A stretch of 46,402 bases of DNA from a virus, in the IMG/VR virus record IMGVR_UViG_3300036760_000229, positions 1 through 46,402 of that record; one strand, 5' to 3'. Position 1 is the stretch's first letter, and each line of letters opens with the position of its first letter. A program made the position numbers and the translations under genes. Of the stretch, positions 14,721 to 39,046 are shown one piece after another. A model generated the notes under the pieces. That model saw nothing but the letters and a program-made list of their open reading frames with translations. It made no database searches and was not told where the DNA came from.

Positions 14721-15074
14721 TTACCGCACGACTTCCAAATCTGTGTCGCCGCTGTCGCGGATGAAATGGCGGATCGTCGGGCCAGCCACCAAACAGCCAA
14801 GGCTTGCGTCGTTCGCCGCGTTGTTGCCGTGGATGCGAAAGGCTGAGCGCCCGTGAGCATCATGGCCTACCGGATCGAGGTTCATCACGCATGGGCCTAA
14901 ATGCGGATGATCGTATGCCGGGCCGATCTTCCATTCGCCGCGCGGGATCGGGCCTATGCCTTGGTCGGATTCCTCGGCAGGATTGTTCCTGCCAGCGGCG
15001 TGACCGCTGTAGCCAGTGCCGACAAATTCGCCGTTATGAAGAAGCTGGCCGTCGCTTTGCCGATAGGTGAACAT
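14721..15074 (-). CDS. DUF2778-type L,D-transpeptidase-fold protein, probable lysin
   Basis: The 117-residue product carries the catalytic pattern of the L,D-transpeptidase fold: GIGPIPRGEW (39-48), IHG with H82, and SLGC with C94 (FRIHGNNAANDASLGC). DUF2778/Tlde1-type proteins cleave or remodel peptidoglycan cross-links. Lying first in the lysis cassette, ahead of holin-like and spanin genes, it is the best endolysin candidate; no lysozyme or amidase gene is present there. The ATG at 15074 follows the late motif at 15107-15118 by 32 nt. Confidence 0.8.
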   Translation of the reverse strand: MFTYRQSDGQLLHNGEFVGTGYSGHAAGRNNPAEESDQGIGPIPRGEWKIGPAYDHPHLGPCVMNLDPVGHDAHGRSAFRIHGNNAANDASLGCLVAGPTIRHFIRDSGDTDLEVVR

Positions 15075-15106: not shown

Positions 15107-15118
15107 GGCAACGCACCT
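15107..15118 (-). promoter_or_regulatory. Late motif copy A, AGGTGCGTTGCC
   Basis: Perfect 12-bp copy read leftward, 32 nt before the lysin ATG. The TAA stop of the upstream tail gene overlaps its first bases. Confidence 0.6.
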
Positions 15119-15591
15119 TATTGATGGATGCGCTGTCTGCGCCGGATCGCGCGGCGCTTGACCTTTCGTCTTGGCCTAGATCGCGCCCTCGACGTGAACA
15201 CCGGCGCGACGACGGTGAGATCGGCGGATCGCTTCCAGGTTGCCCCGTCCCAAAATGCCAGCGTAGCGCCGCCAGCGTCGTCCGAAATGTAGATGATCTG
15301 CCCCGGCACCCCCCCCATTGGAAGGCTCGCAACGGTGTAGGCAGGGGCCGTGAGCGGGGTAAATTCGAGCGCCGAAGCGCCGGCGTTCACGCGGGCATAT
15401 TTTCCAGCGGTGCCAGTATAGGAAACCGGCGTGTCGCTGAGCCCGGCGAATGTGCCGATCAATCCCAAGGCTAACCGGCGAACGCTGGCATCTATGAATT
15501 GCGCCCACCTGGCCCATCGCCTCGTGAGCCGCTTTTGAGGATCGACGAACTTATCGTCCTTTGGTAATCGCGCTGTTGGTATCGTGGTCAT
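15118..15591 (-). CDS. Tail-associated protein with polybasic C-terminus, 157 aa
   Basis: Residues 1-45 are helical and basic; residues 45-125 are a beta-rich tail-fibre-like segment (LSDTPVSYTGTAGKYARVNAGASALEF and PGQIIYISDDAGGATLAFWDGATWKR). The last 27 residues, from VFTSRARSRP, are more than half Arg/Lys and match the repeated FTPR modules of the neighbouring 824-aa protein. The start at 15591 overlaps that gene's stop as ATGA. A virion fibre or receptor-binding accessory is likely. Confidence 0.7.
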   Translation of the reverse strand: MTTIPTARLPKDDKFVDPQKRLTRRWARWAQFIDASVRRLALGLIGTFAGLSDTPVSYTGTAGKYARVNAGASALEFTPLTAPAYTVASLPMGGVPGQIIYISDDAGGATLAFWDGATWKRSADLTVVAPVFTSRARSRPRRKVKRRAIRRRQRIHQ

Positions 15592-18062
15592 GCGAGCGTC
15601 CAATTGCCAGCTTTCCAAGCGACAAACCAATGGCCCTTTCTCACCGACACAAGTTCGATCATCGCACCAATCTGCGTGCTGGTGATCGTCGTTCCTGTGG
15701 TCGTGCCGTCATGGATTGTGTCACCGGCCAAGGCGCTGACCTGCACGGTGTCCACAACGCCGAAAAGCATCTGCAAACCGGATGATGCGGACGGCAAAGT
15801 GAACGCTGACGGCGCAGGGATCGGAGCCGGATAGACGGTAAGGCGTATCGAGCGCGGGAGGCGCGGCTTACGAAGGCCGATCTTCCGACGCTTTGGCGAG
15901 CGGCGCTTCGGCTTGAGTGGAACCGGCCCGGTGATCGGGACGTAGGGGATGAATACGAGAACTTTCCTGCGCCTGGTCTTACGAAGTTTCAGCGCGGCCA
16001 GCAGTTTCTTGCGCGGCCGGACAAAGCGTTTCGGTGTGAATACAGGTGCGACGGGTTGCGCCTGAACGATCTTGCGGATGATGCGCGCACGACGTTTTAG
16101 ATGCTTGACGATCCGGCGGCGGCCAAATGCGCCCCTCGGTGTGAATACTGGCGCTGCGGCGGGCTGTGTCTGTGGCAAGCGGCGCGAGCTTCGGCCGCGA
16201 GCCAACCGCGCATTAATCCTGCGCCGCGCACGTTGGCGGAGTTTCGCAAGGAACTCAGGTGCGATCCTGAGCGCCATGATGAGCTGTTCGTCGAAAGCGG
16301 AAGCTACAACTGGCGCATGAGTTCTTGCATTTGCATCGCCGCTGACTTGATAGGCGAGTGTCATGGTCAAATTTGTGCTTGCAACGCCGCCTGTCGTTCC
16401 TTTTTTCGCCAGGATGCTTGTCCAGCCGTTTGCAGCATTTTCGGCATAGGCATTGGTGGATGGTCCGAGGCCAACATAAGCAGCGAACATTAAATCGTAT
16501 GCCCGCGAAGGCGTTCCGCTGGTGAGCGATGGATTTGTTTCTGCGCCACCGCTCGATCCGCGGTGTGCTTGAACGACTACATCTTCAACCCAAGGAACTG
16601 TTGGAATGAAATATGCCGCCAGAAAACCGCGCGCATATCCGGCACCGCTTATTCCGGCAAAATCAACCTGAATCGTGCTGACAGCAGAGCGGGCGATTGT
16701 CCAAAAGAATTGCGTCTTTTCATTACTGACCGCATTGTCGCTGACGGATGGAATATAATCATTGAGCGCATCGTCCGAAACAGCAATGTCAACAACGCTT
16801 GAAGTGTTCTCCGCTGCGAGAATGACAATGAGCGCGCCCGCTGGCACTCCGACAGAGTTCAATGCAAATGATGAGTTTGTCTTATCGAATGTCGAGCCGA
16901 TTGGGATTGAAGTTCCCCAAATCGTTGCAAGATATGGCGGCGGCACACGAAGATGCTGACGCCTGCGAACACCGGCTCTGTGGCGCAGTCTCCCGCGTCC
17001 TTTTGGAGTAAATACAGCGGCTGCTGCGGCTGGCTGCTCTTGCGGAAGCCGCGTCGAGCGTTTGCGAATGACGCGCGCAACTGGCTTCCGATGGCGAGCC
17101 TTCTGCTTTGGCGGAACGATCTTTTGCGGAGCCTGTGGACTGAATATCGCGGCGCGCGGCCTGAGCGTGCGCTTGCGCGGCGGCTTGATCCGAAGCGGAG
17201 GTTTCCGTCGCGCTGGCTTTGTCGGTAAAGTTTTCGGCGGCGCCTGGATGCTGAAAATTGCCGAACGAGGCGGACGAATACGACGGCGGCCAGCAATCTT
17301 ACGGCGGCGATGTCTTGAACTCGGAGGAAGAACGCGAGCGCCTTCGCGGCCGGAGATTATCGTCGGGCGCTGATGCCTTACGCGGCGGGCCGGAACGTGG
17401 CGTTTGCGAGTGCGCGCTCGTGGTGTGAAGGCTGCTGCGGCAGCCGTCTCTACCAGCAGCACATAGCCGGAGCGAGGGGTGTTACCAGAACCTAAATCAT
17501 CTTGGTCGATAGAATGATCTGCGGGGCTGGAATTATAAATCTTGTACCCGGCTAGAAGACTATTGGTAGTCCCAACCGTAGCATCAAATGCGGGACTTGC
17601 AGTGCTGAATGATGCTGGCGTGGCGGTTGTTACATAAGCCTGTCCTAGAACGAGAAGCGGTGCCGCCTGCCCAGAAGCGGAGACTGTTTGTAAAGCTGGA
17701 TTGCCGCTTGTTAATTCTCCATTCCATGTTGATGGCGTTGCACTGACAAACGCGCTAAGATTGCTATGGAATACGAGAATTACTTTTTGGTTGCGAAGAT
17801 CGCCATTTACGCCAGTAATGCTCGACCCCGGCTCCCCGGCCGCGAGAATTTTGTAACTAACAACAGAGCGTGAGCCACCGACACCGCCAATGCTTAGAGA
17901 CGCGCCTATTTGTGTAAACCCAGTAGGAACTACCTCCGCTGGCGCGCCGCTTGAATTTGAACCATCATCAAATAATACCGCCAAGTCGCCAATAGATGCG
18001 CCAGCCGGAATAGTAACTGTGCTGGATGTCGATGTCGCGCTATCTACAAAAGAGACGGTCAT
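15588..18062 (-). CDS. Modular tail protein with Arg-rich FTPR linkers, 824 aa
   Basis: Domain order: beta-sandwich-like domain 1 (1-206), polybasic linker 1 (212-375), beta-rich domain 2 (377-600), polybasic linker 2 (606-742), and a C-terminal fibre module (745-824) homologous to the C-terminus of the 20707-21384 protein. The linkers repeat the pattern [IV]FTP or IFSPQAP followed by Arg/Lys/Pro-rich stretches (near residues 212, 269, 306, 350, 639 and 674). Beta domains and position suggest a tail fibre or receptor-binding protein. Its start lies right after a terminator, so it may have its own expression control. Confidence 0.75.
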   Translation of the reverse strand: MTVSFVDSATSTSSTVTIPAGASIGDLAVLFDDGSNSSGAPAEVVPTGFTQIGASLSIGGVGGSRSVVSYKILAAGEPGSSITGVNGDLRNQKVILVFHSNLSAFVSATPSTWNGELTSGNPALQTVSASGQAAPLLVLGQAYVTTATPASFSTASPAFDATVGTTNSLLAGYKIYNSSPADHSIDQDDLGSGNTPRSGYVLLVETAAAAAFTPRARTRKRHVPARRVRHQRPTIISGREGARVLPPSSRHRRRKIAGRRRIRPPRSAIFSIQAPPKTLPTKPARRKPPLRIKPPRKRTLRPRAAIFSPQAPQKIVPPKQKARHRKPVARVIRKRSTRLPQEQPAAAAAVFTPKGRGRLRHRAGVRRRQHLRVPPPYLATIWGTSIPIGSTFDKTNSSFALNSVGVPAGALIVILAAENTSSVVDIAVSDDALNDYIPSVSDNAVSNEKTQFFWTIARSAVSTIQVDFAGISGAGYARGFLAAYFIPTVPWVEDVVVQAHRGSSGGAETNPSLTSGTPSRAYDLMFAAYVGLGPSTNAYAENAANGWTSILAKKGTTGGVASTNLTMTLAYQVSGDANARTHAPVVASAFDEQLIMALRIAPEFLAKLRQRARRRINARLARGRSSRRLPQTQPAAAPVFTPRGAFGRRRIVKHLKRRARIIRKIVQAQPVAPVFTPKRFVRPRKKLLAALKLRKTRRRKVLVFIPYVPITGPVPLKPKRRSPKRRKIGLRKPRLPRSIRLTVYPAPIPAPSAFTLPSASSGLQMLFGVVDTVQVSALAGDTIHDGTTTGTTITSTQIGAMIELVSVRKGHWFVAWKAGNWTLA

Positions 18063-19004: not shown

Positions 19005-20702
19005 TTACATCAGGATCAGGGAGCCGCTTTGGGATGCCTCGAAATCGGTGGGGTCCACGAAACCGACCGTCGGATAGCGATAGCGAATCAAATGCTGCGC
19101 GCGCTGACGCACCCACGGCGTCTCGAATGAGCGATTGAGCGCGGCCATGATGAGTTCGCCGGTGAGATAATCCGTATCGCGGGCGGGCGCCGGGTCGCTC
19201 CAAATGCGGACAACAGCATCTTCGACCGCCGTATCGAGCGTCACATAACCGCCCTTGAAGCCGGGATAGGGGTTGTTTTTTTCGATGAAATTGGGATCGG
19301 CCTGAATGGCGTCAGCATCATCCCATCCTGGGAAACGAACGAGTTTGCCGGTGAAGGTGAAATCCGCCTGCTCAAGCTCAATGTCGTTCACGGTCACGCG
19401 AAGATCGGCCTGCACCATGACGCGGAAGGTGATCGGAAATTTCGAGCGCGCATCGCCAACGCGATATTCGTTAAATGGCCTTTGCTCAAACGGCAAAAGC
19501 TGGCGGACGGTATATTCGACCGCAGGGCATTCGCGCTCGGCGGGATCATCGTCTCCTTCGACCGGAGTGAAGGCATCGCCTTCAAGGCCGAGAAAATAGA
19601 GGCCCAATCCCTCATTCGCTGTGCCTGGGCCGGGCGACCAAATTGCTCCCTTGAACGGCTCGTATGTCAAAGAATATGCCAGCGGCATCCACGGATCATC
19701 TGGCCAGAGTGTCACGTTGTAGATCGTCTCAACGCCCGTCTCACGATTGAACAGCGCAAAATCCCATTGGGTGTCGATGATCTTCCTGCAGAATACTGGA
19801 TCTTCGCGCCAGTTCATCAGATCGGCGATAAATGAAAGATTGCCGCCGCTCTCGTTCACAATCCCACGACTATCCATTGTGAACACGTCGCCAACGAGAA
19901 CGCAGGTGGTGGGATTCCAAAAAGCCACTCGCCCGCTGTCATACCAAAGGATGAAGCGGTTGAGCGACGGGATATTTGTCATTTTCATCAGGGGATCGCC
20001 GTCGCCATAGGGCGTGTAGGTGGCCTCGAATGTTGCGGTTATCACGCCAGCGACTTCGGTCAGCCCGTAGCGCGCGAGCTTTCCATTATTCGATGAATAC
20101 CAAAGCTTGCCTGCGTTATCGAAGTGGCAATCTTGCAGGGGGGCCGCGAACGCAAGCTGGCCGGCGCGCGTGGTGAGAAAGGAGTTGCTCGGTATGTGAT
20201 AGATGCTTCGCGTGTTGTTGTCTGCCGCGAGCGGAACGCTGATCCCGGCGGCGAAGGTTTCGGTGCCATCAATCGCAATGTGGGTGATGTTGTTGTCAAC
20301 GGAGCTACCACCGACATTGTGGCCGCTGTGCTGGACGTAGGCCAACGTCTCGCGGTCGAATACGGTCCAAAAGAGCCCGGTGGTGGCATCCGGCGGCGCA
20401 TTCCATCCTGTCGTCGTGACGATGTATTGCCCGCCAGGCGCGAGCGCGAGAGGAGTTTTGGTTGGCCCGCTCATCCCCGTGACAGAAGGCCAAACGCCGG
20501 AACCGTCAGCGTCGGGGATGGCGCTCGATATCAGCGCGCCGATGTTGTTCCACTTCGAAAGGTATTCATAATCATTGGTGCCACCGCTGTAGATATAGAC
20601 GCGATGTTCCGCTTCCTCTCGAATTAGCACATGAACGAAATTCTGAATCGTCTGATCGGGAATTTCGAACAGAGGATCAATTACTGTGTCGGTATATGCC
20701 AT
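19005..20702 (-). CDS. Tail fibre-like protein, 565 aa
   Basis: Residues 1-390 are rich in beta strands with repeated aromatic-acidic turns, compatible with a propeller or beta-sandwich. Residues about 415-520 resemble the T7-type fibre N-terminal domain (FPITFRVMVQADLRVTVNDIELEQADFTFTG...GGYVTLDTAVEDAVVRIWS). The C-terminal 45 residues are helical and basic. A virion-attached fibre or adsorption protein is the best reading. It starts 4 bp after the 20707 gene ends. Confidence 0.75.
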   Translation of the reverse strand: MAYTDTVIDPLFEIPDQTIQNFVHVLIREEAEHRVYIYSGGTNDYEYLSKWNNIGALISSAIPDADGSGVWPSVTGMSGPTKTPLALAPGGQYIVTTTGWNAPPDATTGLFWTVFDRETLAYVQHSGHNVGGSSVDNNITHIAIDGTETFAAGISVPLAADNNTRSIYHIPSNSFLTTRAGQLAFAAPLQDCHFDNAGKLWYSSNNGKLARYGLTEVAGVITATFEATYTPYGDGDPLMKMTNIPSLNRFILWYDSGRVAFWNPTTCVLVGDVFTMDSRGIVNESGGNLSFIADLMNWREDPVFCRKIIDTQWDFALFNRETGVETIYNVTLWPDDPWMPLAYSLTYEPFKGAIWSPGPGTANEGLGLYFLGLEGDAFTPVEGDDDPAERECPAVEYTVRQLLPFEQRPFNEYRVGDARSKFPITFRVMVQADLRVTVNDIELEQADFTFTGKLVRFPGWDDADAIQADPNFIEKNNPYPGFKGGYVTLDTAVEDAVVRIWSDPAPARDTDYLTGELIMAALNRSFETPWVRQRAQHLIRYRYPTVGFVDPTDFEASQSGSLILM

Positions 20703-21527: not shown

Positions 21528-22478
21528 ATGAGCATTTTAGATAAGCCCTACTTCCGCACCGAGGAAGCCGCCTACGCCAAGCTGGAGGCCGTCCTATGGC
21601 CCCAAGGCCCTGAGTGTCCGCACTGTGGCGTGGTGGATGACGCCCATAAGATCGAGGCCAACTTAAAGGCCAAGGTCAGGCACGGCCTCTATCGCTGTAA
21701 TTCGTGCGCCAAGCAGTTCACGGTGACCGTGGGGACCGTATTCGAGTCCAGCCACATTCCGCTCCACAAGTGGATGCAAGCCGCCTTCCTGCTCAATTCC
21801 AGCAAGAAGGGCATCAGCGCCAAGCAGATCGAGCGCACGTTGCAGGTCACCTACAAAACAGCGTGGTTTATGATGCACCGGCTACGTGAGGCTATGGCCC
21901 CGGCGGGCAAGCAAAGCCCAATGGGCGGCGAAGGCTACGTAATCGAGGCCGACGAAACCTATCTCGGCAAGCGCGATGGCAGGAAAAGCAAGCCCGACTC
22001 GTTTGTGACCGGCTTCGGCTGGGTATCGCACCCCAAGATCGACACGCAACGCAAGATTGTGGCGTTGGTCGAGCGTCACGGCTCTGCCCGGTCGTTTGTC
22101 GTGGATCGCGTGAACAAGAAAACCATCCGCAAAGTGCTTTTGGACAATGCGGACAAGCAATCCACGCTAATGACAGATGAGCATACGGTTTATCCGGCAA
22201 CCGGCGCGCACTTTAAACAGCACTACACGGTGAACCACAGCGCCTACGAATACGCTCGCGGCATGGTTTCGACTAACACAGTCGAAGGCTACTTCAGCAT
22301 TTTCAAACGCGGCATGAAGGGCATTTATCAGCATTGCTCGGAGAAGCATTTACATCGTTATTTGGCCGAGTTCGATTTTCGCTACAGCAACCGCGGAGGT
22401 ATCGGTGTGAATGACATTGCTCGCACTGATCGCGCCTTAAGGGGCGCTAGGGGCAAACGGCTCATGTATCAATCCTAA
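21528..22478 (+). CDS. IS1595-family transposase
   Basis: At 316 residues this is a full-length IS1595 (ISXO2-like) transposase: N-terminal zinc ribbon (C30, C33, C57, C60), a helical DNA-binding part, then the RNase H-fold core with D142 in IEADETYLG, D217 in LMTDEHTVY and E253 in STNTVEGYFSIFKRGMKG. It is on the strand opposite to all late genes and interrupts the fibre region. I could not find convincing terminal inverted repeats, so whether it is a mobile insertion or fixed cargo is open. Confidence 0.92.
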   Translation: MSILDKPYFRTEEAAYAKLEAVLWPQGPECPHCGVVDDAHKIEANLKAKVRHGLYRCNSCAKQFTVTVGTVFESSHIPLHKWMQAAFLLNSSKKGISAKQIERTLQVTYKTAWFMMHRLREAMAPAGKQSPMGGEGYVIEADETYLGKRDGRKSKPDSFVTGFGWVSHPKIDTQRKIVALVERHGSARSFVVDRVNKKTIRKVLLDNADKQSTLMTDEHTVYPATGAHFKQHYTVNHSAYEYARGMVSTNTVEGYFSIFKRGMKGIYQHCSEKHLHRYLAEFDFRYSNRGGIGVNDIARTDRALRGARGKRLMYQS

Positions 22479-22617: not shown

Positions 22618-22633
22618 CCTGGATGGCTTCGGT
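22618..22633 (-). repeat. 16-bp tRNA-Leu fragment next to the first tRNA
   Basis: Identical to 23209-23224, which is the anticodon-stem and variable-arm part of the tRNA-Leu-like gene. Here it directly follows the first tRNA without the rest of a cloverleaf, so it looks like a relic of a decayed or recombined tRNA. Confidence 0.7.
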
Positions 22634-22646
22634 CCTAGACCCAGTG

Positions 22647-22719
22647 CGCGCCCGGCAGGATTTAAACCTGCATCTCACCGTTCGGTAAACAGTTGCTCTA
22701 TTCGTTGAGCTACGGGCGC
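22647..22719 (-). tRNA. tRNA with Arg-type body, anticodon loop reads ACC
   Basis: A 73-nt cloverleaf: 7-bp acceptor (GCGCCCG/CGGGCGC), 4-bp D stem (GCTC/GAGC), 5-bp anticodon stem (ACTGT/ACGGT with one G-U), 5-nt variable loop and 5-bp T stem (GCAGG/CCTGC). Discriminator G73; no CCA is encoded. The 7-nt loop TTACCGA places ACC at 34-36, formally Gly (GGU), but the body and G73 look like tRNA-Arg. The D loop has A where G19 is usual and the T loop has T at position 56, a matching pair change. Isotype is uncertain. Confidence 0.8.
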
Positions 22720-23153: not shown

Positions 23154-23180
23154 GTTAGAACCTCATAGGCTTAACGAAAG

Positions 23181-23262
23181 TGGCCCCGACCGGACTTGAA
23201 CCGGCACGCCTGGATGGCTTCGGTTTTAAAGACCGCTGCGTCTACCATTCCGCCACGGGGCC
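23181..23262 (-). tRNA. tRNA-Leu-like gene with UUA (ochre-reading) anticodon
   Basis: An 82-nt class II cloverleaf: acceptor GGCCCCG/CGGGGCC, leucine-type D arm (GGCGGAATGGTAGACGC), long variable arm (GCC...GGC), T arm GCCGG-TTCAAGT-CCGGT and discriminator A73. The anticodon arm is GCGGT-CTTTAAA-ACCGA: CGGT/ACCG fixes a 7-nt loop with TTA at 34-36, which pairs with UAA stop codons. Ordinary tRNA-Leu(UAA) would have TTTAAAA as its loop. One mismatch (27-43) sits at the stem end. CCA is not encoded. Confidence 0.85.
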
Positions 23263-23979: not shown

Positions 23980-24318
23980 CTAATCTATTATTTGGCCTAT
24001 ATCGCCCAAGGTTTTGAACGGCGCTGGTATGTCCCTCTTATGCTCGGAGGGGACAGTTTGATAGGCGTTTTCCATTTTTTGCCATGCGGTAACCGCCGAC
24101 TGAATCAACTTAAAAAGATCATCGCGGCTGGGCCAGTCGGGAACTTTATGCGCCACTTGGCGCGGGTCATCCCGCAAGGCACTCGCAAACCGCTCGATTG
24201 CCGCCCTCAGGACAGCAAACTGAGTAGCTACTCTCTCAGCCTCATTTCGGGCAGTCAGATATTCCTCAATCGAGGTCAATAGGGGCCACTCCCACCGATT
24301 CTCAGGGTAGTTTATCAT
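23980..24318 (-). CDS. Hypothetical helical protein, 112 aa
   Basis: Overlaps the end of the large internal virion gene by 17 bp and is read in the same direction, so it belongs to the late operon. It is helical (TSIEEYLTARNEAERVATQFAVLRAAIERFASAL) with a tryptophan-containing second half. Possibly an assembly factor; no known family. Confidence 0.65.
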   Translation of the reverse strand: MINYPENRWEWPLLTSIEEYLTARNEAERVATQFAVLRAAIERFASALRDDPRQVAHKVPDWPSRDDLFKLIQSAVTAWQKMENAYQTVPSEHKRDIPAPFKTLGDIGQIID

Positions 24319-26836
24319 CTAGGCCCCCTGTTTGTGAAGTATATATACGCCGGAAAATGTAGGTCTGATCGTTCTCGCGCTTGAGGCGTTGCTCGGAGCG
24401 CTTGAGATAACCCGGCGAGGCCATCTCTTGCAGATTGTAGAAAATCAGGTAATCGAGCGCGAGCTTCGTATAGAACAGATTCGCGAACGGCGTATTGCCG
24501 CGCACGAAGCGAATCGCATCGGCCGGCAAAGCATGGCGGCCTTGGCTTGTCCGCAGGTCAGACCATACCTTGAGAAAATCCGCCATCGTGCCGAATGTTG
24601 GGCCAGCGGCGGTTTCAAGCGGCGATGCGCCATAACGGCTGAATTCCCCGAATAGATAATCGCCGTAAATGCCGAGGCCGCCGCCCTGAGTAAGCGCCGA
24701 CGCCCAAACTTGCGGCCAGCTATCCGAGAACGGATTGCGCGGAGTGCGGCCCTTGAGGATTTCCTTCGCTTGCAGCGAAATCATTCCCATGGCCGTGGTA
24801 GCTGCGATCAGATGCGCGAGCCCCTGAATGTCGCCACGGCCCTTCAATAAACCCTGCACGAGCCCAAGCCCGCCAAGATCGCGCCCAATGGCTTTCGTGG
24901 CAAAGGTCAGCGGGAATGATTTGAATTGCCAGAAGAAGCGCATGGATTCGCCCATCCATGTGCCGCGATGAAGCCCGCCGTGCATCAGAGCGCGTTCGCG
25001 GGAACCTGGTGTCAATACCGCAAAGTCTGTCCGATCAACATAGAAAGCTTGTAGCGCTGTTGAAAGTTCATCGCGGGCGCGCGCCGCATTATTCCCGAAC
25101 CCGGAGAACGCCTCATCAGGAAGCGCGCGCACGCCGTCAGGCGTAAGGTATGAGCGGCCATCCAGCGCGGCTTGCTTGCCCTTGCGAATGACGGCCCATT
25201 TGGCTTCGTCGATTCCGTAGCCTGAAATCGCCTCGCGGAACTTCGAATCGAGCGACGGCCAAGACCGCCTCGCCTGTTCGGCCGCGCGCCACGCCATCAT
25301 CTTACCGGCGCCGACTTTCACGCTATCGGTCCACCAGCTCAGCAAGTTGGCCTTAAAGAAAAGGCGCATCGTTTTCGAGGCGATACCAGCGGCGTCGTCC
25401 TGCGCATTGAAACGGCTTGAGATATGGCCGAGCGCGCCTTCCATGCCAACGCCGATATTCGCCGAGAGGATACGTTGTTCGCCGGAACTGTGGCCTTCAA
25501 GGAAATTGGCAAAGAGATTGGTGTAAGCCGTGCCGAGATTTTCGCCCTGATAGCGAAGCTCTGCCGCCGCTGTAGGAACATCGGAAAAGCTGGATAGCAT
25601 CGAGAAACCAAGTTTCGCCATCGACTGAATTGCGCGGACGCCTTCGCCCCATTGCGCGAGCGTGGGGTTGTCCACGATCTTCGTCGTGCCGTCGATCTCA
25701 CTGAATTGATGATCGATGCGCGCGGAATTGATTTTTTGGTTCCAATCGGGATGCTCGTCGCGGTATTTGGACGCCGCCCAGGCGCGCAGATCATCAAACA
25801 TGGCGCGCGGGTTTGTGCCGAATGTTTCCATCAGCGCGATGTCGCGCGATGAACGCTCGAAGCCGCCGAATATCGCTTCCGTCAGGCTGCGGGTGCCGAA
25901 GCGATTGTTGTAAGCGAGGAAGGCGTCAGCATCCTTGAAATGCAGCACGCGCTCATGGCTGAGTTTCTTGGCGAGATTGGCCGGTCCCTTGAAGGCAAGA
26001 TCGGTGAAGCTGCCCTGCGATTTGACATGAAGCCCGGACGCCAGCGCGGAATACGTCGAGTTCAGGAATTCAGCTGGATCGTTGCCGCCGAAGGTCTTTT
26101 CGTTATCGAGCAGCGGGCGAATGAAATTGACCCATGCCTCGCGGCCCGCCCGCATGATCCTGGTCTGATCGTGGCTTTGGCGAACGATGTAATTTACGGC
26201 GCGGCCGACGAACGATCCGGCCCGGTTTGTGCGAAGCCGCGCGACTTCCTGCCATTTATTGACGATCTCGGCGATGCCTTTGGCTTCTGTCGAAACCTTG
26301 GCCGTGACCTTGCCATCCTCACCGATTGACCACATCGCTCGGGCGATGTCGGTATCGAGCACGCCCTTATCGCGGCCAAGCAGCCCAAGGCGGCGCGACA
26401 TGAATTCCCATAGGCCAGCCTTTTCAAGATCGCCGATCATTCCGCCGACAAGCTCGGCCGTGACCGCCTTCTGCCGCGCATCAACCGACATGCGGGCGCC
26501 GGGAACTTTCTTGTTGATGCCGACGGCTAGCGCCTCGATGGCTTCATGGGCCTTGAGGCCACCGTTGACGCCAGTTTCGACAAAATCTTGCAATCGCTTT
26601 CTGGCGAGAATGTTGAGCGCCTTATTGCGTGCCGTCACGCGGGCGACCTTATCGGCCTCAGAGCCGAAATCCTTGGCCGCCTGGTCTAGCGCCTCGCCAT
26701 CGCTGAGCATCTTGTCCCGGCGCTGCTTGGCGCGGGCCCTGCGCTGCACGTCCTCGGCGATGGCCTGAATATCGTCGTCCGTGAGTTCTTTGCCCGCGAG
26801 CGCCCGAATTTCCTTAATGCAATCCTTGATCGCCAT
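24302..26836 (-). CDS. Internal virion (ejection) protein, 844 aa
   Basis: A large, mainly helical protein (N-terminus CIKEIRALAGKELTDDDIQAIAEDVQRRARAKQ) with several amphipathic or hydrophobic stretches toward the C-terminus (HLIAATTAMGMISLQAKEI). Size, composition and position after two other internal virion proteins match the T7 gp16-type DNA ejection proteins of short-tailed phages, which leave the head and form a channel across the envelope. No peptidase motif was seen here; that activity is in the 839-aa protein. Confidence 0.8.
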   Translation of the reverse strand: MAIKDCIKEIRALAGKELTDDDIQAIAEDVQRRARAKQRRDKMLSDGEALDQAAKDFGSEADKVARVTARNKALNILARKRLQDFVETGVNGGLKAHEAIEALAVGINKKVPGARMSVDARQKAVTAELVGGMIGDLEKAGLWEFMSRRLGLLGRDKGVLDTDIARAMWSIGEDGKVTAKVSTEAKGIAEIVNKWQEVARLRTNRAGSFVGRAVNYIVRQSHDQTRIMRAGREAWVNFIRPLLDNEKTFGGNDPAEFLNSTYSALASGLHVKSQGSFTDLAFKGPANLAKKLSHERVLHFKDADAFLAYNNRFGTRSLTEAIFGGFERSSRDIALMETFGTNPRAMFDDLRAWAASKYRDEHPDWNQKINSARIDHQFSEIDGTTKIVDNPTLAQWGEGVRAIQSMAKLGFSMLSSFSDVPTAAAELRYQGENLGTAYTNLFANFLEGHSSGEQRILSANIGVGMEGALGHISSRFNAQDDAAGIASKTMRLFFKANLLSWWTDSVKVGAGKMMAWRAAEQARRSWPSLDSKFREAISGYGIDEAKWAVIRKGKQAALDGRSYLTPDGVRALPDEAFSGFGNNAARARDELSTALQAFYVDRTDFAVLTPGSRERALMHGGLHRGTWMGESMRFFWQFKSFPLTFATKAIGRDLGGLGLVQGLLKGRGDIQGLAHLIAATTAMGMISLQAKEILKGRTPRNPFSDSWPQVWASALTQGGGLGIYGDYLFGEFSRYGASPLETAAGPTFGTMADFLKVWSDLRTSQGRHALPADAIRFVRGNTPFANLFYTKLALDYLIFYNLQEMASPGYLKRSEQRLKRENDQTYIFRRIYTSQTGGLDDKLP

Positions 26837-26842
26837 GTTCGC

Positions 26843-28060
26843 CTATGGGTGCAGGTTCAAGCAGCGGGATGCCGCGAGCGCCGCATCGCCATCCTGCTTT
26901 GCCCGCTTGATGTCCTCGGAACCGGAGCGCGCTTCGGTGGCTTGCTCCGGTGTCAGAATTCCTTGCTTTTCGTGATCGGCCACAGTCGCCAATGCCTCTT
27001 GTAATTGGGCCTCGATGTCGTCGCCCTGCTTAACCTTGAGCGCCTCGTCGGCGTTGATGGATGCTTCCGGCGAAACGGCGGTGCCGGGTTCCTGTCCGCG
27101 ATTGAAGGCTTCCGTCTTGCTACGAGACTCGTCCAGCGTGCGCGCCGCGATATTGGGCTCATCCCCGCCCATAACCGGATCAGCCGCCATGACAGCGCCC
27201 ACGTCCACTGGACGGCCTTCTGCCGCTTGGGCCACAGCCGAGCGAAGCGCCGCCTCGCGCGTGCCAGCACCAGCCTTGGTGAGCAAATCGGAAATCGCGC
27301 CGAAGCCCGCATGAAGCCCGCCGCCCAGGACCGAGCCGAACGCGACATTGATGAAAGCGTCGAGCGGGCCGTATTCATTTTGGAATGCTTTGTCGTAGCC
27401 AGCCTCAAGGGGCTGCAAGGCCGCTGCACCCACGCCACCCTCGATTCCGCCCCTTGCCAGCCGCGCCCCTGTAGCCCCAAATTTGGCCGCCCAGAGTCCA
27501 TAGCGGGCCTCACCCACAATCGGCATGAAGGACGCGGCCACGTTCACCGGATCGGTCGCGGCGACCGCGAGTTGCGTCAGAAACTTGATGCCCTGGAAAA
27601 GCACCCCTGATGGCCCGCGCGCCAATAGCTGTTGCCGTCTGTTCTCATCCTCCTTGGCGGCCACGATGATGTCGACGGCCCCTTTCCGCATGGGCCGGTC
27701 GAAGCTCAATCCCAGGCTTTCGCCATACTGTTTGTTGAGGGTTTCAGGATCGATGAATTCATCCGCTGCGCCACGGTCGCCGACCTGAGTATTTTTCATG
27801 GCTTCAAGCGGCTGGTAGAGCAGGCTTAAGCCTGTGGGCAATGCGCTGAGCACATACCCAGCACCCTTAATCGGCGCGCGGAGCGCGGGAAACATGGCTG
27901 ATGCCAACTCGACACCGCTTTTACCTTCCGGATTTGGACTATGCACCCACATTTCTTCTGCCGCCGCACCGAGCGCGTCGGAGAACAGCACATTCACGCG
28001 GTCGAGAACATTTGATCGCGCATAATCGCTTTCTTCGAAGGCTCCGCCGAAGCCGCTCAT
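26843..28060 (-). CDS. Internal virion protein, 405 aa
   Basis: Begins MSGFGGAFEESDYARSNVLDRV; the middle has long Gly/Ala-rich, weakly hydrophobic segments (AALQPLEAGYDKAFQNEYGPLDAFINVAFGSVLGGGLHAGFGAI) and the C-terminus is charged and helical. It is placed between two large ejection-type proteins, 6 bp from the downstream gene and overlapping the upstream gene by ATGA, so it probably is part of the same internal core complex. Confidence 0.75.
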   Translation of the reverse strand: MSGFGGAFEESDYARSNVLDRVNVLFSDALGAAAEEMWVHSPNPEGKSGVELASAMFPALRAPIKGAGYVLSALPTGLSLLYQPLEAMKNTQVGDRGAADEFIDPETLNKQYGESLGLSFDRPMRKGAVDIIVAAKEDENRRQQLLARGPSGVLFQGIKFLTQLAVAATDPVNVAASFMPIVGEARYGLWAAKFGATGARLARGGIEGGVGAAALQPLEAGYDKAFQNEYGPLDAFINVAFGSVLGGGLHAGFGAISDLLTKAGAGTREAALRSAVAQAAEGRPVDVGAVMAADPVMGGDEPNIAARTLDESRSKTEAFNRGQEPGTAVSPEASINADEALKVKQGDDIEAQLQEALATVADHEKQGILTPEQATEARSGSEDIKRAKQDGDAALAASRCLNLHP

Positions 28061-30576
28061 CGTGCGCGCGCCAGATTGCGGCGGCGCCTGGCGTCAAGAT
28101 CGGAACCGAACGAAGCGAAGAAGCCCCCCGTATCGCCAGATTGCCCGACAAGCTCGCCCCAGGTGAAGCGCATCCAATTGCCGTTCGCGTCACGAGCGGG
28201 GACAAATCCAGCCTCGGCCGGGTAAAGAAGCTGCAAGCCGGAATCGTCGGGCAAAGTGGCCCACACGCCATTGTTCCGCAGCGTGCGCGCGGCGAGATCG
28301 CGGCGGGTCGCCTCGTTCATCGTCTTATCGCCCGAGCCTTCGGGAAAGACCTTCTCCGGCGTGAGCGCGTTCTGAATTTCATTCGCTGCCGTCTCGACGT
28401 CGCCAAGCGGGATGCCTACAGGAACGCGATAGGTGTCTGAGAACTGATAATGCTTGCCGATGATGTCGGCCACCGCTTGCGCTCCGGCCTCGTCCGGGTC
28501 TTTACCTTCGAACGCGAGCTGATAGCCATAAAGCTGAGCCGCCTCGGCTTGAAGAGCGCTGATCTTTGAGCCGTCCACATTGCCGACCAATGTGGCGTTG
28601 AAATCGGCCAAGCCAGCCGTTACCGCCTTATCGATCTGCTTCGGATTGGGTGCGACCTTGCGGAGTTGCTCGCGGCCCGTATTGACCGCCTGCGCCATGC
28701 GCGCGGCCACAGGCGGATCATGCTGGACCTGCGCTAGCGCGAGCGCCTCGGATGGTAGGCCGCCCTTTTGCAGTTCGGCCATGACCTGCGGGTAATACTG
28801 GCCGAAGCGAGATTCGAGCGCGGAGATCGTGCCGACCATCGTTGCCGCTCGGTTCGCCGGATCGGCGGCGCTTTGGAATTGGCCGACAATCGCGTTGGTC
28901 TGCGCTTCGTCGAGAATGCGCGGCTTCGTGGTGCCGATGTCTGCCTCAATTTGCAGCAGCGAGCGCACGCCGTTTTGAACAACGGCCGGGTCTTTGGATG
29001 TGAATTGCTGCGCGATGTCGGGACGGTTGCCCAAGACGTATTGCGCCGGGTCTTTGGCAAGCGCCTGGCTGCGCTCGGCCACGGCTTCGGTGAAAGCCTT
29101 ATAGACGCGGGCCTTATCAGCGATGCCCTCGCCCTTCGCGCCGCCCCATCCCCAATGAATGTGATCGCCTTCATTTATCAATTCCGTAACCGGCAATCCT
29201 TTGTCCGTGAGCGCCTTGCGAACCTGATCGGTCGAGACGCCATTTGGGACCACAAAATCGAGCGCTTGGCCAGAAAGGTGCATGGAGTTCGCCACGCCGC
29301 CAACGTCCGCATTATGCTGCGGTGAACGTTCGCCGCTCGTGATCGTGGCGTCGGGGAAAGCATCCTTGATGGCGGATTGCGCGTTGATCTCTGTCAGGCC
29401 CGGCGGCGCTGCCTTTGGCACTGTCCCCAAGTTCGCCGGATTGTAACGTTTCGCCATGTCGGCCAGATCGGCCGGCGTCGCCATACCGACGGCTTTGCGC
29501 ATCGAATAGGTTTCGGTCGCAGCATCAAGTTTGCCGATGATCGAACGGCCTTCCGGGCCAGGGAATGCCCGCATAATTTCATCGTCCGTCATTACGCTGG
29601 ACCTGTCGCCAGTTGCCAACGCTGCGGCTGTCGCATCATCGATCCGATAGGATAGCGAGCGGCGCAACTCATCGCGGTCGCCGCGGTCTATCGCATCGAG
29701 CTGGCGGATTTCCTGACGGGCCTGCGCATCAAACGAGCGGCGTTCCTCAGGCGACAAATTCAACGCCGGATCATCGAGCATATCGCCGACGCGCTTTTCG
29801 GCTTCCGCGCGTCCATGAATTTGATATAGCCTACCCACGCTGCCGATAATGGCCTCGCCTTTCAGCGTGCTTAGGAATTCGTTGATGGCGAGATTGGTTT
29901 CCTCTTTGCTGATGCCGAACGCGGGATTGGACCCAAGATTGCGATAAAGCTGAATGTTCTGATTGATCAGGTCCGCCGCACGCGGATCGCCAAGCCGGTT
30001 CTGTCGCGCAAAGCCAACAAGCTCGTTCGTATTGCTCTTGATCAGCGCCTCGGCGGAATTCTGAGCCTCTTTGACATCGGAATTGATCTTGGCTCGCGCG
30101 ATCTCATCCAGTGCCGAAATGCCCTGCTTGTCCACCATCGCTTCGATGTCAGCATGGAATTCAGGCGGCGCGTTTTTGATTGCGCCGGTCTTGATGCCAT
30201 CGAGCGAAGCGGCAAAGCCATTGGGGTCGCCAATGTGTTTCTCCTGCAAATCGCGGATTTGCGTGGTGAGATCGAGTTGGGTTTCGGTCAGATATTTGAG
30301 GCGCGCGGCATGATTGTAAGCCGCATCGGCTTCGGTGAATTCGGTATGCAGTTCTCCCGACATCGCGCCAGTATCGGTGCGTTTACCGGCGACAGTGCCA
30401 AGCGATGCCGCTCGTTCATTCAGCGCAGGCTGAAAGAATTTCTTGTTGATCGCTTCCGCTTGGTCGGCCAGCATTTGAAAGCCGGAGCCAGCGTTTTGAT
30501 CATAGACTACGGGTGCTGGCTTAAGTGTCGCCGGGCCGTATTCAAGTTGTGGCAGGCCGCCTAGTTTGCTGACCAT
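28057..30576 (-). CDS. Internal virion protein with M15 peptidase domain, 839 aa
   Basis: Residues about 395-475 contain a peptidase M15 (D,D-carboxypeptidase-like) domain: TSGERSPQHN (413-422), H433 and D440 in SMHLSGQALD, and H474 in DHIHWGW, the expected zinc ligands and catalytic set. Long helical regions flank it on both sides. In the virion it would open the peptidoglycan during DNA entry, the role played by transglycosylase domains in T7 gp16. The C-terminus is strongly basic (DARRRRNLARAR). Confidence 0.85.
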   Translation of the reverse strand: MVSKLGGLPQLEYGPATLKPAPVVYDQNAGSGFQMLADQAEAINKKFFQPALNERAASLGTVAGKRTDTGAMSGELHTEFTEADAAYNHAARLKYLTETQLDLTTQIRDLQEKHIGDPNGFAASLDGIKTGAIKNAPPEFHADIEAMVDKQGISALDEIARAKINSDVKEAQNSAEALIKSNTNELVGFARQNRLGDPRAADLINQNIQLYRNLGSNPAFGISKEETNLAINEFLSTLKGEAIIGSVGRLYQIHGRAEAEKRVGDMLDDPALNLSPEERRSFDAQARQEIRQLDAIDRGDRDELRRSLSYRIDDATAAALATGDRSSVMTDDEIMRAFPGPEGRSIIGKLDAATETYSMRKAVGMATPADLADMAKRYNPANLGTVPKAAPPGLTEINAQSAIKDAFPDATITSGERSPQHNADVGGVANSMHLSGQALDFVVPNGVSTDQVRKALTDKGLPVTELINEGDHIHWGWGGAKGEGIADKARVYKAFTEAVAERSQALAKDPAQYVLGNRPDIAQQFTSKDPAVVQNGVRSLLQIEADIGTTKPRILDEAQTNAIVGQFQSAADPANRAATMVGTISALESRFGQYYPQVMAELQKGGLPSEALALAQVQHDPPVAARMAQAVNTGREQLRKVAPNPKQIDKAVTAGLADFNATLVGNVDGSKISALQAEAAQLYGYQLAFEGKDPDEAGAQAVADIIGKHYQFSDTYRVPVGIPLGDVETAANEIQNALTPEKVFPEGSGDKTMNEATRRDLAARTLRNNGVWATLPDDSGLQLLYPAEAGFVPARDANGNWMRFTWGELVGQSGDTGGFFASFGSDLDARRRRNLARAR

Positions 30577-31073
30577 CAGGGACCACCACCACCACCACCA
30601 CCGCCGCCGCCGCCGCCGCCCGTGTTGAGATAATTTGCGGCGTCGTTACCTGCGCCGAACAATCCTATGCCGCCTTTGATGATGCCGCTGTAAAGCGACA
30701 TCTGCGCTTGTGATCGCAATATCCCGGCCTGCGTTCGATTGGCTTGTGCCTCTCGGCCATAATTCAGCCTTTCGGTCGCAATGCCGCGTTCGGCCTTTTT
30801 CGTATAGGCGTCTCGCAAGGCGATTCCTGTCGGGCTGGAAACCTCAAGACCGCGACCGGCGCGAATGGCGTCCACAGCCGAAAGTGTTGAAAGCAGATCG
30901 TCGCGCCGCGCGGCTTCGGCCTGATCAGCCGCGATCATCGCCACCTTGGCGTTGCGTTTGTATTGATCGGCGGCAGATTTTTCCGCATTGCTCTTGGCAA
31001 TACCACCAGCAATTTCGAGGCCTGACGAAACCACCGTGGCCGCAATCGCCATTGTTACCGGATCGAAGCCCAT
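30576..31073 (-). CDS. Internal core protein with poly-Gly tail, 165 aa
   Basis: The N-terminus has a hydrophobic glycine-rich helix (VTMAIAATVVSSGLEIAGGIAKS), the centre is an Ala/Arg-rich helix, and a second small hydrophobic part follows (GIIKGGIGLFGAG). This matches T7 gp14-like internal core proteins. The C-terminus is 13 consecutive glycines then Pro, encoded by a GGN triplet run (30582-30620) prone to slippage. The stop overlaps the next start. Confidence 0.78.
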   Translation of the reverse strand: MGFDPVTMAIAATVVSSGLEIAGGIAKSNAEKSAADQYKRNAKVAMIAADQAEAARRDDLLSTLSAVDAIRAGRGLEVSSPTGIALRDAYTKKAERGIATERLNYGREAQANRTQAGILRSQAQMSLYSGIIKGGIGLFGAGNDAANYLNTGGGGGGGGGGGGGP

Positions 31074-33212
31074 CTAAAAATCGACCTCCATCATCAGCGA
31101 TAACACGATCAGCGGCGCGGGCGCGCATTGGGCGATTATCGGAACTAGCGTATCGCCACGTCCTGGCACCTTGAACTTCTTTGCTTCGGTGCGGAGCGGC
31201 GGCGCAATGTCCAAAGCCTCGCCCGTGCGATAGGCCGGGCTGAGTTGGCTATTGAGGGTATAGGAACCCGTATCCTTCACATGGATCAGGACTTGCGGGA
31301 TGCCGTAGCGTTGGCCATGGCGGAAGGCCGGATGCTGGATTTTCGGCGGTAATGGAGAGACATCGACGTTGGCATGAAGCCCGGCGACATAAGCCCCATC
31401 ATCGAGATCGAATGTGGTCAGCACTCCGCCCGCGCTAGTCGTATAAAGCCCATGAAACCATGTCGTTTCGCTGATCACATCGAGCTCGGTTGAAGGATAG
31501 TCCGCAAGCGTGACAGAGGGTGCGGTAAATGCCACCGCACCGTCGATCAGCAAATCCTCGTCGAATTCCTCAAGCCACCACACTTCCACATCGTTGATAA
31601 GCCGCTGCACGATGGCGAAATTCTTGCCACCGGCGCAGAACATCGAGCGGAAGCTGCCGTTGGTCGTCCATGGTGTCCAGCCAATCGGAACATCGCTGGT
31701 CACGGATTGATATTTGGCGCAGGCGATAGAGCCGTCGTCGTTGACCACATAGGCATAACGTTCATCGCGCGATGTAATGCCGATGTCGGCGGCAAGCCCG
31801 CGCGGGCCAGTAATCTGCTCGGTCCAGAATGTCGTGAGATTTTGCGTCTGCCATGGGCCTTGCACGTTGCCTGTCGGCAAAATGCCAAGCACCCGGTTTG
31901 CGCCCTCCTCGACGAAGGCGAAGCCCAATTCGGTTGAAACCGGCTTCACCGGCGAAGCGCCCACCGGCGAGATAAGCCGGAAGTCGATGGTCGAAGGCGT
32001 GACCACTTGCGTCCCGTATTCGGGAATGTAGTAGCAAGCCTTATCGGTCAGCACGATGCCCTGATCGGCGGTGATCAGATGAAGCGCGCGCTGACCCTTG
32101 TAATCGGGGATCAGTTCAAAGAACGCATCGCCATCATTCGCGCCAATCTTGAAATACTCCGGGAAGCCAGCAGCCGAAGCCGTAATGCCGCGTGGCAAAT
32201 CTCGCATGTTGAGAAAATACAACCGCCCACGATGAACCGCGCATGTGCCGGGATAACCGCGAACCGCCGAGAACGCTTGTTCATCCCAATCGACCACGGC
32301 GGCCGGCGTCGTATCCGTCGGGCCAAAGACGATGTCGGATTGCGCATTGTTGTCGCCGACCAGCGTTTCGCCATTGGTGAAGCCAGTCAGGCCACTTGTA
32401 TAAACAATGGTGAGGACAACCCCCGCCTTATTGACGATGATGCCCTTGGCACCGGAATCCAATCCTTCGCAACTGGTATCCACCATGAAGCCATCGCCAT
32501 TTGATACTGAGACGATGACGGTTTTCGGCAATGTTGAAACGATTGTGCCGGTCGCAGTTAACGGATCGATGACTGCGGTGATCAGAATTTCGTAGCCCAG
32601 ATAGCGGAAATATGTGTCGGTATGATTGGCGTCGAACACATCATCACTGGCGACCAGCGTGATTGACCCCGTGACCGCGCTCGGCTGCAATGTGATCCCT
32701 TTGTCTGCATAGCGCCAATAGGGTTGCGCAGGAGCGCCAGCCGGTCCCGCCTGAAAGACAAAATCATCAAACGACCAAACTCCCGCATCATCGACCGAAA
32801 TCACTTGCGGCCAGAACGTCGTATGCGTGACGATGAATTTCCCATCGTCGAGCGAAAAGCACATGACATCGATGATCGATGATCCCCACGGCGCCCCGGT
32901 CAGCGTATCGACGAGCGCATTATCCTCGTCGAAAATATCGACCTCGGTATGCCGGAAGACCAGCTTGAAGATGCTGCCATCGGGCGCAACATATTCGACG
33001 CCGACGGCCTTCCCGTCGAGCGTCACGCGCTTCCATGTGCCAGCCCTGCGCTTGAGCGCGCCGCCCGCGAGGATGCGCGTATTCAGGCCAGTGGTCAGAC
33101 CATTGTTATAGATTTGCTTCGAGCGGTCTTTGCGCGCGCGGCTGTCGATCTGACCGGCTGAGAAATTGGTGACTTCACATTCTTCGAGGGGCACTTCCGA
33201 GCCTCCTCGCAT
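31074..33212 (-). CDS. Tail tubular protein B (nozzle)-like, 712 aa
   Basis: The protein is almost all beta, with the opening EVTNFSAGQIDSRARKDRSKQIYNNGLTTGLNTRILAGGALKRRAGT that is typical of podovirus tail nozzle (gp12/TTPB or stabilisation) proteins, and it directly follows a TTPA-like gene. It forms the distal tail tube through which DNA exits. The start used (33212) overlaps the preceding gene by 38 bp; an in-frame GTG at 33194 is possible. Confidence 0.85.
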   Translation of the reverse strand: MRGGSEVPLEECEVTNFSAGQIDSRARKDRSKQIYNNGLTTGLNTRILAGGALKRRAGTWKRVTLDGKAVGVEYVAPDGSIFKLVFRHTEVDIFDEDNALVDTLTGAPWGSSIIDVMCFSLDDGKFIVTHTTFWPQVISVDDAGVWSFDDFVFQAGPAGAPAQPYWRYADKGITLQPSAVTGSITLVASDDVFDANHTDTYFRYLGYEILITAVIDPLTATGTIVSTLPKTVIVSVSNGDGFMVDTSCEGLDSGAKGIIVNKAGVVLTIVYTSGLTGFTNGETLVGDNNAQSDIVFGPTDTTPAAVVDWDEQAFSAVRGYPGTCAVHRGRLYFLNMRDLPRGITASAAGFPEYFKIGANDGDAFFELIPDYKGQRALHLITADQGIVLTDKACYYIPEYGTQVVTPSTIDFRLISPVGASPVKPVSTELGFAFVEEGANRVLGILPTGNVQGPWQTQNLTTFWTEQITGPRGLAADIGITSRDERYAYVVNDDGSIACAKYQSVTSDVPIGWTPWTTNGSFRSMFCAGGKNFAIVQRLINDVEVWWLEEFDEDLLIDGAVAFTAPSVTLADYPSTELDVISETTWFHGLYTTSAGGVLTTFDLDDGAYVAGLHANVDVSPLPPKIQHPAFRHGQRYGIPQVLIHVKDTGSYTLNSQLSPAYRTGEALDIAPPLRTEAKKFKVPGRGDTLVPIIAQCAPAPLIVLSLMMEVDF

Positions 33213-33768
33213 CTATGAGCGGGGACGTTTTTACGTCCTTCGGGAATTTCTGCTTCGAGTCCTGGAAACGCGCGCGGGCGAATTTCCTTTCCGCGCGGCC
33301 TTCGGCTTCGTTCGCATCATTGGGCTTTTTGTCAGCCCGGAGATAAAGCGCTTCAAGGCGGCAAATAATGCCTTCCTTGAAATCAGCGGGCCATAAATCT
33401 TCCGCCGCGCGATAGGTATAGACCGCGTAAACGTCCTCATCGGTGTTGGAGAGAACGACGCCATCTTCGTCGAGCTGATATTCGATGGGCTGACCATTCA
33501 CGATGATCGTGAGCAATTTCAGAACATCGCTCGGAAGCGTTAGAGCGAAAGAGAAATCCTCATCAACCGGCGCATCGGGAAGCAGCGTGCAGGCGTCAGT
33601 CTTGCGCGCGAAGCTCCAAGGAGCCTCGCTTAAAGCCGTTTGAACGATTTGCTCGTAATTGGTGCTGGCGAGGATGGCTTCGACCGTTCCGTCATCGACG
33701 CTCGTGATCGGATTATCCTGCGCGCGGGCTATCGCTGCATTGATGAGGACGATTGATTCCGCGGACAT
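33175..33768 (-). CDS. Tail tubular protein A (gatekeeper)-like, 197 aa
   Basis: The pattern SAESIVLINAAIARAQDNPITSVDDGTVEAILASTNYEQIVQTALSEAPWSFARK, then a beta-rich middle and LWPADFKEGIICRLEALYLRA, fits podovirus head-tail adaptor (T7 gp11/TTPA) proteins, which bind the portal and the nozzle. Its place between capsid genes and the nozzle gene agrees. Confidence 0.83.
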   Translation of the reverse strand: MSAESIVLINAAIARAQDNPITSVDDGTVEAILASTNYEQIVQTALSEAPWSFARKTDACTLLPDAPVDEDFSFALTLPSDVLKLLTIIVNGQPIEYQLDEDGVVLSNTDEDVYAVYTYRAAEDLWPADFKEGIICRLEALYLRADKKPNDANEAEGRAERKFARARFQDSKQKFPKDVKTSPLIDARRLGSAPRRM

Positions 33769-35111: not shown

Positions 35112-36050
35112 TTACGCGACGATGGCGCCGGTCTTGACGCCCCACAGGCGGGTCGCAGAGTTCTTGCCGTAGATCACCATGCTCAGATACCACTCGACGC
35201 GGGTGCGCCAAACGGGGAGCGTGTTGAGTTCGCCAAGATCGCGAACATCGATGCCGCCGTTGGAAATTCCAACAACGCCATCTTCGCCGAAATTCACGAC
35301 ATAGATGGATGTGCCGACAGCCGAGCCGCCGCCGGGGTTGGCTTCGGTGTATGGCAGGATCGCGGTGTTCTGATTTTTCGGATAGCCGACCAAAATTGGT
35401 AGTCCGCCATAGGAGAGAACGTTCTTTCCCATGTCGTCCATGCTCATCATAATGTTCGGGAAGGTCGATGAGCGATAGGCCGCCTGGAAAAGAAGCCGTT
35501 GTGCACGAGACATGATGAGATGCGTCGGATCGGCCGTGTTGTCGATTGCGGAATCGAGCTTGGCGAGGCTGAGTACGTCGCCGCCCGATGTCGAGCCGTT
35601 GGCGACAAGCGCGCCCGCCGTAAGACGGGATTGCAGCCCGTCGAAATCGCGCGGGTCGCTCGAATTGTCGCCCTTTATGATCACGTCGGTCACGTCCTGG
35701 GCGAGCGCCTTCACTTTCAGCGCCTCATGCCGCGTGCGGACTTCCATGCCCATTGTCTTGATCAGGAAGCGGTCCACATCGAGATCGCCGCCAAACAGAT
35801 AGAGGGCTTCCTTCTGCGGATTGAAATTGCCCGCGTCGGCGGTGAAGCCTTCGTTGATGCCGCGCGAACCGGATGCCGGTAGATCGCCTTCCTGATTGAA
35901 GGTGATCGCGCTTCCGGTGATACCCTCGAAGCGCATGGCCTGGAGAACGTCGGAGCGTTCCGAATAGAGCGAAATCACGCCCGCGCGTTTGGTGTCGCCA
36001 TCATTCAGCGCCAGCTTCGCGGCTTCGTTAAGAGTAATTGCAGCGGTCAT
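35112..36050 (-). CDS. Major capsid protein (HK97-fold type)
   Basis: At 312 residues, following portal and scaffold genes, this is the expected major capsid gene. Recognisable parts are the N-arm, the E-loop-like segment (INEGFTADAGNFNPQKEALYLFGGDLDVDRFLI), the helical spine (RHEALKVKALAQDVTDVIIKGD) and the C-terminal segment (VWRTRVEWYLSMVIYGKNSATRLWGVK) seen in HK97-fold proteins of podoviruses. No protease gene is present, and a separate scaffold is encoded, so maturation would follow the scaffold route. Confidence 0.88.
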   Translation of the reverse strand: MTAAITLNEAAKLALNDGDTKRAGVISLYSERSDVLQAMRFEGITGSAITFNQEGDLPASGSRGINEGFTADAGNFNPQKEALYLFGGDLDVDRFLIKTMGMEVRTRHEALKVKALAQDVTDVIIKGDNSSDPRDFDGLQSRLTAGALVANGSTSGGDVLSLAKLDSAIDNTADPTHLIMSRAQRLLFQAAYRSSTFPNIMMSMDDMGKNVLSYGGLPILVGYPKNQNTAILPYTEANPGGGSAVGTSIYVVNFGEDGVVGISNGGIDVRDLGELNTLPVWRTRVEWYLSMVIYGKNSATRLWGVKTGAIVA

Positions 36051-36823: not shown

Positions 36824-37084
36824 TCATTCCTCTGAGCACATTTGCTCGATAAGCGCGGCGAGTTGACGTTTGCCCTCATGCTCCCGCAACGCACCGTCAG
36901 AAACGCCAGCGCCCAATGAACGATGAATTGTCGTTGCCATCAGCCATCCGAGCGCGGTCTGACCATCCGGCGTTTTCGCTATGCGCCGCCAAGCCGCTAC
37001 TACCTGCGCTTTGTCTTTCGCGTGTTCGGATTTGAGTTTGGGATCGCCGCGAAGATTGTCGAAGGTGCGCGCTTGTTGCTTCAC
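36824..37084 (-). CDS. Small hypothetical protein, 86 aa
   Basis: Starts MKQQARTFDNLRGDPKLKSEH at an ATGA overlap with the portal stop. Two helices separated by a tryptophan-containing turn (VVAAWRRIAKTPDGQTALGWLMATTIHRSLG). Small proteins of this kind between portal and scaffold are common in podoviruses; role unknown. Confidence 0.7.
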   Translation of the reverse strand: MKQQARTFDNLRGDPKLKSEHAKDKAQVVAAWRRIAKTPDGQTALGWLMATTIHRSLGAGVSDGALREHEGKRQLAALIEQMCSEE

Positions 37085-39034: not shown

Positions 39035-39046
39035 GGCAACGCACCT
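39035..39046 (-). promoter_or_regulatory. Late motif copy C, AGGTGCGTTGCC
   Basis: Perfect copy, overlapping the TAG stop of the terminase gene and 32 nt before the ATG at 39002. It would drive or mark the portal-capsid-tail segment. Confidence 0.6.

Follow-up and report, generated by a model that had tools for sequence, protein, structure and literature searches.

The window analysed here, the whole stretch of DNA under study, is a single 46,402-base virus record of IMG/VR, and the features discussed below are collected in Table 1. Judged by sequence similarity, its structural genes belong to the epsilon15/phiV10/Ab31 kind. Besides its Ab31 counterpart, the large virion protein matched SPN1S, Tyrion and others more weakly, and the region 24302-31073 codes for the ejected and internal virion proteins. 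Ab31 (vB_PaeP_Tr60_Ab31, a Pseudomonas phage) has structural genes like those of AF and a virion like those of epsilon15 and phiV10 (PMC3974807). Sited between the virion genes and the lysis genes are two adjacent reading frames, designated P1 and P2, which overlap by four nucleotides. A transposase gene sits among the late genes, is encoded on the strand opposite to them and adjoins the fibre cluster; because its best relatives are alphaproteobacterial (the top one, 62% identical, was found in a MAG), the host of the virus is probably an alphaproteobacterium. The phage also encodes exonuclease-VIII-like and RecT-like recombination proteins. The gene at 14721-15073 (minus strand), which carries a Tlde1 (PF10908) domain and matches phrog_24118, is placed just ahead of an Rz-like spanin gene, so that its product is a candidate lysis enzyme.

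Table 1. Coordinates of the fibre-locus features and of the recognised late genes in the window.
Feature	Position	Strand	Basis
P1, 824-aa tail-fibre-type protein	15588..18062	-	ORF from ATG
D1 (residues 1-210), phage tail beta-sandwich domain	17433..18062	-	relatives in viral contigs; AlphaFold model; fold matches
Linker A (211-376), polybasic, net +51	16935..17432	-	composition, motif, frame tests
D2 (377-604), folded-looking, no relatives detected	16251..16934	-	
Linker B (605-748), polybasic, net +48	15819..16250	-	composition, motif, frame tests
Amphipathic cationic segment RRIVKHLKRRARIIRKIV (649-666) in linker B	16065..16118	-	hydrophobic moment 0.84
Cap (749-824), tail-fibre C-terminal domain, with stop codon	15588..15818	-	similarity to 225-aa ORF and Ab31 gp17
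P2, 157-aa fibre-shaft-type protein	15118..15591	-	ORF from ATG; 4-nt ATGA overlap with P1
Basic C-terminal module of P2 (128-157), net +13 in 30 aa	15121..15210	-	
565-aa protein, adaptor-like domain at C-terminal rather than N-terminal end	19005..20702	-	
225-aa protein, N-terminal tail-fibre adaptor and cap domain as in P1	20707..21384	-	phrog_1640 (adaptor)
IS1595/ISXO2-type transposase	21528-22478	+	
Virion protein	24302-26836		phrog_684 match; 38% identity to Ab31 counterpart
Tail protein	31074-33212		
Tail protein	33175-33768		
Major head protein	35112-36050		
Head-tail adaptor (portal position)	37081-38691		
Terminase	39045-40844		

The initial annotation had described two adjacent reading frames with polybasic linkers carrying a repeated FTP-type module, and the reading frames, composition and motif counts confirm that description. 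Lysine and arginine make up 32% of linker A and 33% of linker B, and the two linkers pooled contain no aspartate and only 0.6% glutamate. The rest of P1 is slightly acidic, with net charges of -8 for D1, -8 for D2 and -1 for the cap. Charge density in the linkers is about +31 and +33 per 100 aa. The highest value among the other window genes tested was +19 per 100 aa, in a gene of unknown function (41959-42534), and the recognised virion and packaging genes of the window did not exceed +11. The fibre proteins neighbouring P1 and P2 have no basic stretch and reach at most +2 per 100 aa. That such extended charge is unusual for a tail protein was borne out by comparison with 33 tail or structural proteins from four other phages, where the maximum was +17 per 100 aa.

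Peptides read out of frame from this GC-rich phage are Arg-rich and acid-poor, and for this reason the objection that the basic runs reflect a frame error is a serious one. Codon scores for linker A alone and for the P2 tail alone do not separate the frames, and the P2 tail contains rare Arg codons. Out-of-frame translations, however, contain 3% stops as well as Cys and Trp, while the 310 linker codons contain no stop, Cys or Trp; by our own arithmetic the probability of finding no stop in 310 codons is about 8e-5. The synonymous codon preference of linker B (0.13) equals that of the phage genes (0.13 +/- 0.05), compared with -0.06 and -0.15 out of frame. One motif recurs in the same frame in three separate stretches, and its copies differ at 111 of 168 third codon positions against 60 of 168 first and 53 of 168 second positions. 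This roughly twofold excess at third positions is as would be expected if the residues were selected in this frame. The linkers are real coding sequence, and a frame or assembly error as the source of the basic runs is extremely improbable.

The module starts at seven positions in P1, four in linker A (F212, F270, F307 and F351) and three in linker B (F640, F675 and F704), with irregular spacing, and in 20,000 shuffles of the linker residues the observed motif count was never matched. P2 does end in the P1 module as had been proposed, but the start previously given requires correction: with the ATG at 15591 taken as residue 1, the basic tail comprises residues 128-157 and its single module starts at F132. 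Local alignment of the P2 tail with linker B was equalled by 2 of 2000 composition-preserving shuffles, that of the two halves of linker A by 22 of 2000, and that of linker A with linker B (RLPQEQPAAAAAVFTPKG / RLPQTQPAAAPVFTPRG) by 50 of 2000. The alignment of linker A with the P2 tail was weak (132/2000). By these tests the modules are related beyond their shared composition, and since the alignments between linker pieces beat shuffled sequences they support module duplication. Expansion of the repeat by duplication or recombination, as the initial annotation had suggested, thus receives moderate support, with the comparison of linker A and the P2 tail weak when taken alone.

With respect to the folded parts of P1, the cap shares 38% identity with the final part of the 225-aa protein encoded nearby. 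It is also a homologue of the domain that closes the Ab31 tail fibre gp17 (E 2.6e-5 among 40 proteins; 0/5000 shuffles). D1 has relatives in viral contigs at 28-41% identity, in which the domain occurs alone or after a Gly-rich tail domain. Structure prediction, which had been proposed as a check, returned a beta-strand domain for D1 but no usable model for D2, so that the description of the linkers as set between two beta domains finds support for D1 but none for D2. The D1 model matches the predicted structures of many phage proteins (E 1e-11 and weaker), among them minor tail proteins of Mycobacterium and Gordonia phages, and the search of solved structures gave no meaningful match. By these relatives and the predicted fold, D1 is a widespread phage tail beta-sandwich. 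Its codon usage is unlike that of the rest of the phage (CAI 0.49, GC3 0.42), and a D1 profile search found no member in 99 genomes of one genus or in 289 of the class. For D2 no relatives were found and no kinship to D1 was detectable. The linkers were modelled without stable structure, mostly at pLDDT <50, although D2 and the cap scored low too, which makes this a weak indicator of disorder. One of the D1 relatives (contig L086, 4905-5603) opens with SRFIRSGLIAPIFTRSVIAP before its D1 domain; this bears a faint likeness to the APVFT module and may be due to chance.

In P2, residues 45-80 form a shaft repeat with approximately nine matches in gp102, a tail protein of Caulobacter phage Karma; gp102 has no basic tail and reaches a maximum of only +3 per 100 aa. 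No relatives of P2 were found in four related or D1-bearing virus records. The assignment of both proteins to the tail agrees with the cap homology to the Ab31 fibre, the D1 fold, the P2 shaft repeat and the gene order. On the strength of the cap homology, the fold match and the shaft repeat, P1 and P2 are probably proteins of the adsorption apparatus, and a location in the virion would follow from this.

Searches of phages, plasmids, viral contigs and genome contigs recovered no full-length homologue of P1. There was no match for P1 in Pfam or PHROGs, and D1, D2, linker B and the cap, each searched alone against phage records, gave none either. DNA patterns built from the repeat and motif, scanned against IMG/VR, matched 15 viral contigs, none of them related, and found no linker module in 385 alphaproteobacterial genomes, with pattern scans of this kind detecting close matches only and the searched sets possibly leaving out the records nearest the window. 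Within that reach, the proposed search for the repeat, carried out on proteins and DNA, placed the FTP-type module in P1 and P2 only. The D1-type beta-sandwich proteins of contigs L086, L087, L090 and L094 share the homologous domain, and the minor tail proteins from the fold search share its predicted fold, but neither group has polybasic linkers. The literature searches turned up no description of tail fibres with polybasic linkers. Cationic Arg/Pro-rich antimicrobial peptides have a similar Arg/Lys/Pro content; the P1 linkers, however, show no homology to them, match no known peptide family and form part of a large protein of the fibre type. Proteins of this kind are known, and what is new in the sets searched, which may omit the nearest records, is the polybasic, repeat-built linkers.

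In the window, in Ab31 and in a sister contig, L003, whose virion protein is 65% identical, the fibre locus follows the large virion protein. At the corresponding place L003 encodes a single 757-aa fibre, and Ab31 gp17, the C-terminal domain of which is homologous to the P1 cap, is one 783-aa chain with a maximum of +6 per 100 aa. P1 differs from gp17 in lacking an adaptor domain, beginning instead with D1, and in carrying D2 and the polybasic linkers. In the window the adaptor is present twice, once in the 225-aa protein and once at the C-terminal end of the 565-aa protein, for which no relatives were found in viral contigs; the cap likewise occurs twice, in the 225-aa protein and in P1. The simplest reading is that the fibre locus was rebuilt by recombination. 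The fibre cluster is separated from the virion protein gene by the transposase, a pair of tRNA genes and a small gene. One tRNA gene (23180-23262, minus strand; Rfam 57.6 bits) has a long variable arm and an anticodon loop CUUUAAA, from which the anticodon may be read as UUA, ochre-suppressor-like; since TAA still terminates the capsid gene, there is no suggestion of global TAA recoding. An exact 16-base copy of part of this tRNA is found at 22618-22633 (the original at 23209-23224, 591 bases apart), possibly as a remnant of duplication or integration, and the second tRNA gene (22646-22719, anticodon ACC) lies between the two.

We tentatively favour, at somewhat below even confidence, a reading in which the linkers act as flexible cationic tethers that hold the fibre domains and attach non-specifically to the anionic envelope. 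P1 would have been assembled by recombination from D1, D2 and an Ab31-like fibre C-terminal domain, joined by polybasic FTP linkers, and P2, a small shaft-type fibre protein ending in one FTP module, would be translated together with it. The linkers would spread D1, D2 and the cap apart as electrostatic tethers and would keep the virion non-specifically attached to the anionic surface of a Gram-negative cell (LPS phosphates, acidic capsule) as the folded domains locate their receptors. This proposal is based on the in-frame coding, the selection on the motif, the charges of +51 and +48 with near-zero acidic residues, the module common to P1 and P2, the cap, D1 and shaft homologies, the gene position and the weak disorder model. 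Counted against it are that no relatives of the linkers were found, that P1 itself lacks an adaptor domain, and that phage tail proteins, to our knowledge, do not normally carry charge of this extent. The usual account of phage adsorption invokes folded domains that bind receptors specifically. A bolder version, unlikely on present evidence, is that the repeat-built disordered polycationic stalks would themselves be the main binding element of a new kind of adhesin, whose charge grip on acidic envelope polymers would provide a broad, non-specific first adsorption step.

The absence of an adaptor from P1, the acidity of D1 and D2, the lack of any basic stretch in the neighbouring fibre proteins and the presence of the same module in co-translated P2 would also fit a role in assembly, in which the basic modules dock P1 and P2 to acidic virion proteins or to acidic domains on one another and are not turned towards the host. 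L003 and Ab31, however, build a single-chain fibre at this locus and no candidate partner was identified, and we regard this role as unlikely. It is distinctly unlikely that the modules spread by duplication and drift as spacers only, without selection for binding: their irregular spacing, the lack of relatives and the acquired character of the region beside the transposase would agree with this, but the motif copies differ chiefly at third codon positions, and the near-absence of acidic residues over 310 codons would hardly be expected without selection.

The initial annotation had likened the linkers to membrane-active peptides, which might help to open the envelope at entry or lysis. Pro/Arg-rich stretches do resemble known cationic peptides, lysis genes lie just downstream, and the amphipathic segment at residues 649-666 hints weakly in this direction, its hydrophobic moment being reached by 1.7% of shuffles and the best of three segments tested. 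The other two linker B segments were not amphipathic, and in Pro-rich linker A no strongly amphipathic segment was found; we consider membrane activity improbable. Binding of nucleic acid, with P1 and P2 acting on phage DNA in packaging, ejection or intracellularly, draws on composition, as the Arg/Lys content of the modules resembles that of DNA-binding tails. It is highly doubtful, given that the fibre cap, the D1 tail fold and the P2 shaft repeat indicate the adsorption apparatus and that the genes for ejected and internal virion proteins lie in another part of the window.

If the tether reading is true, a fibre-type protein with 310 near-purely positive residues would represent a testable case of charge-driven capture, and the FTP module could be used as a polyanion-binding tag. 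At the level of the phage lineage, the locus also shows how a single-chain fibre can be taken apart and rebuilt inside one lineage.
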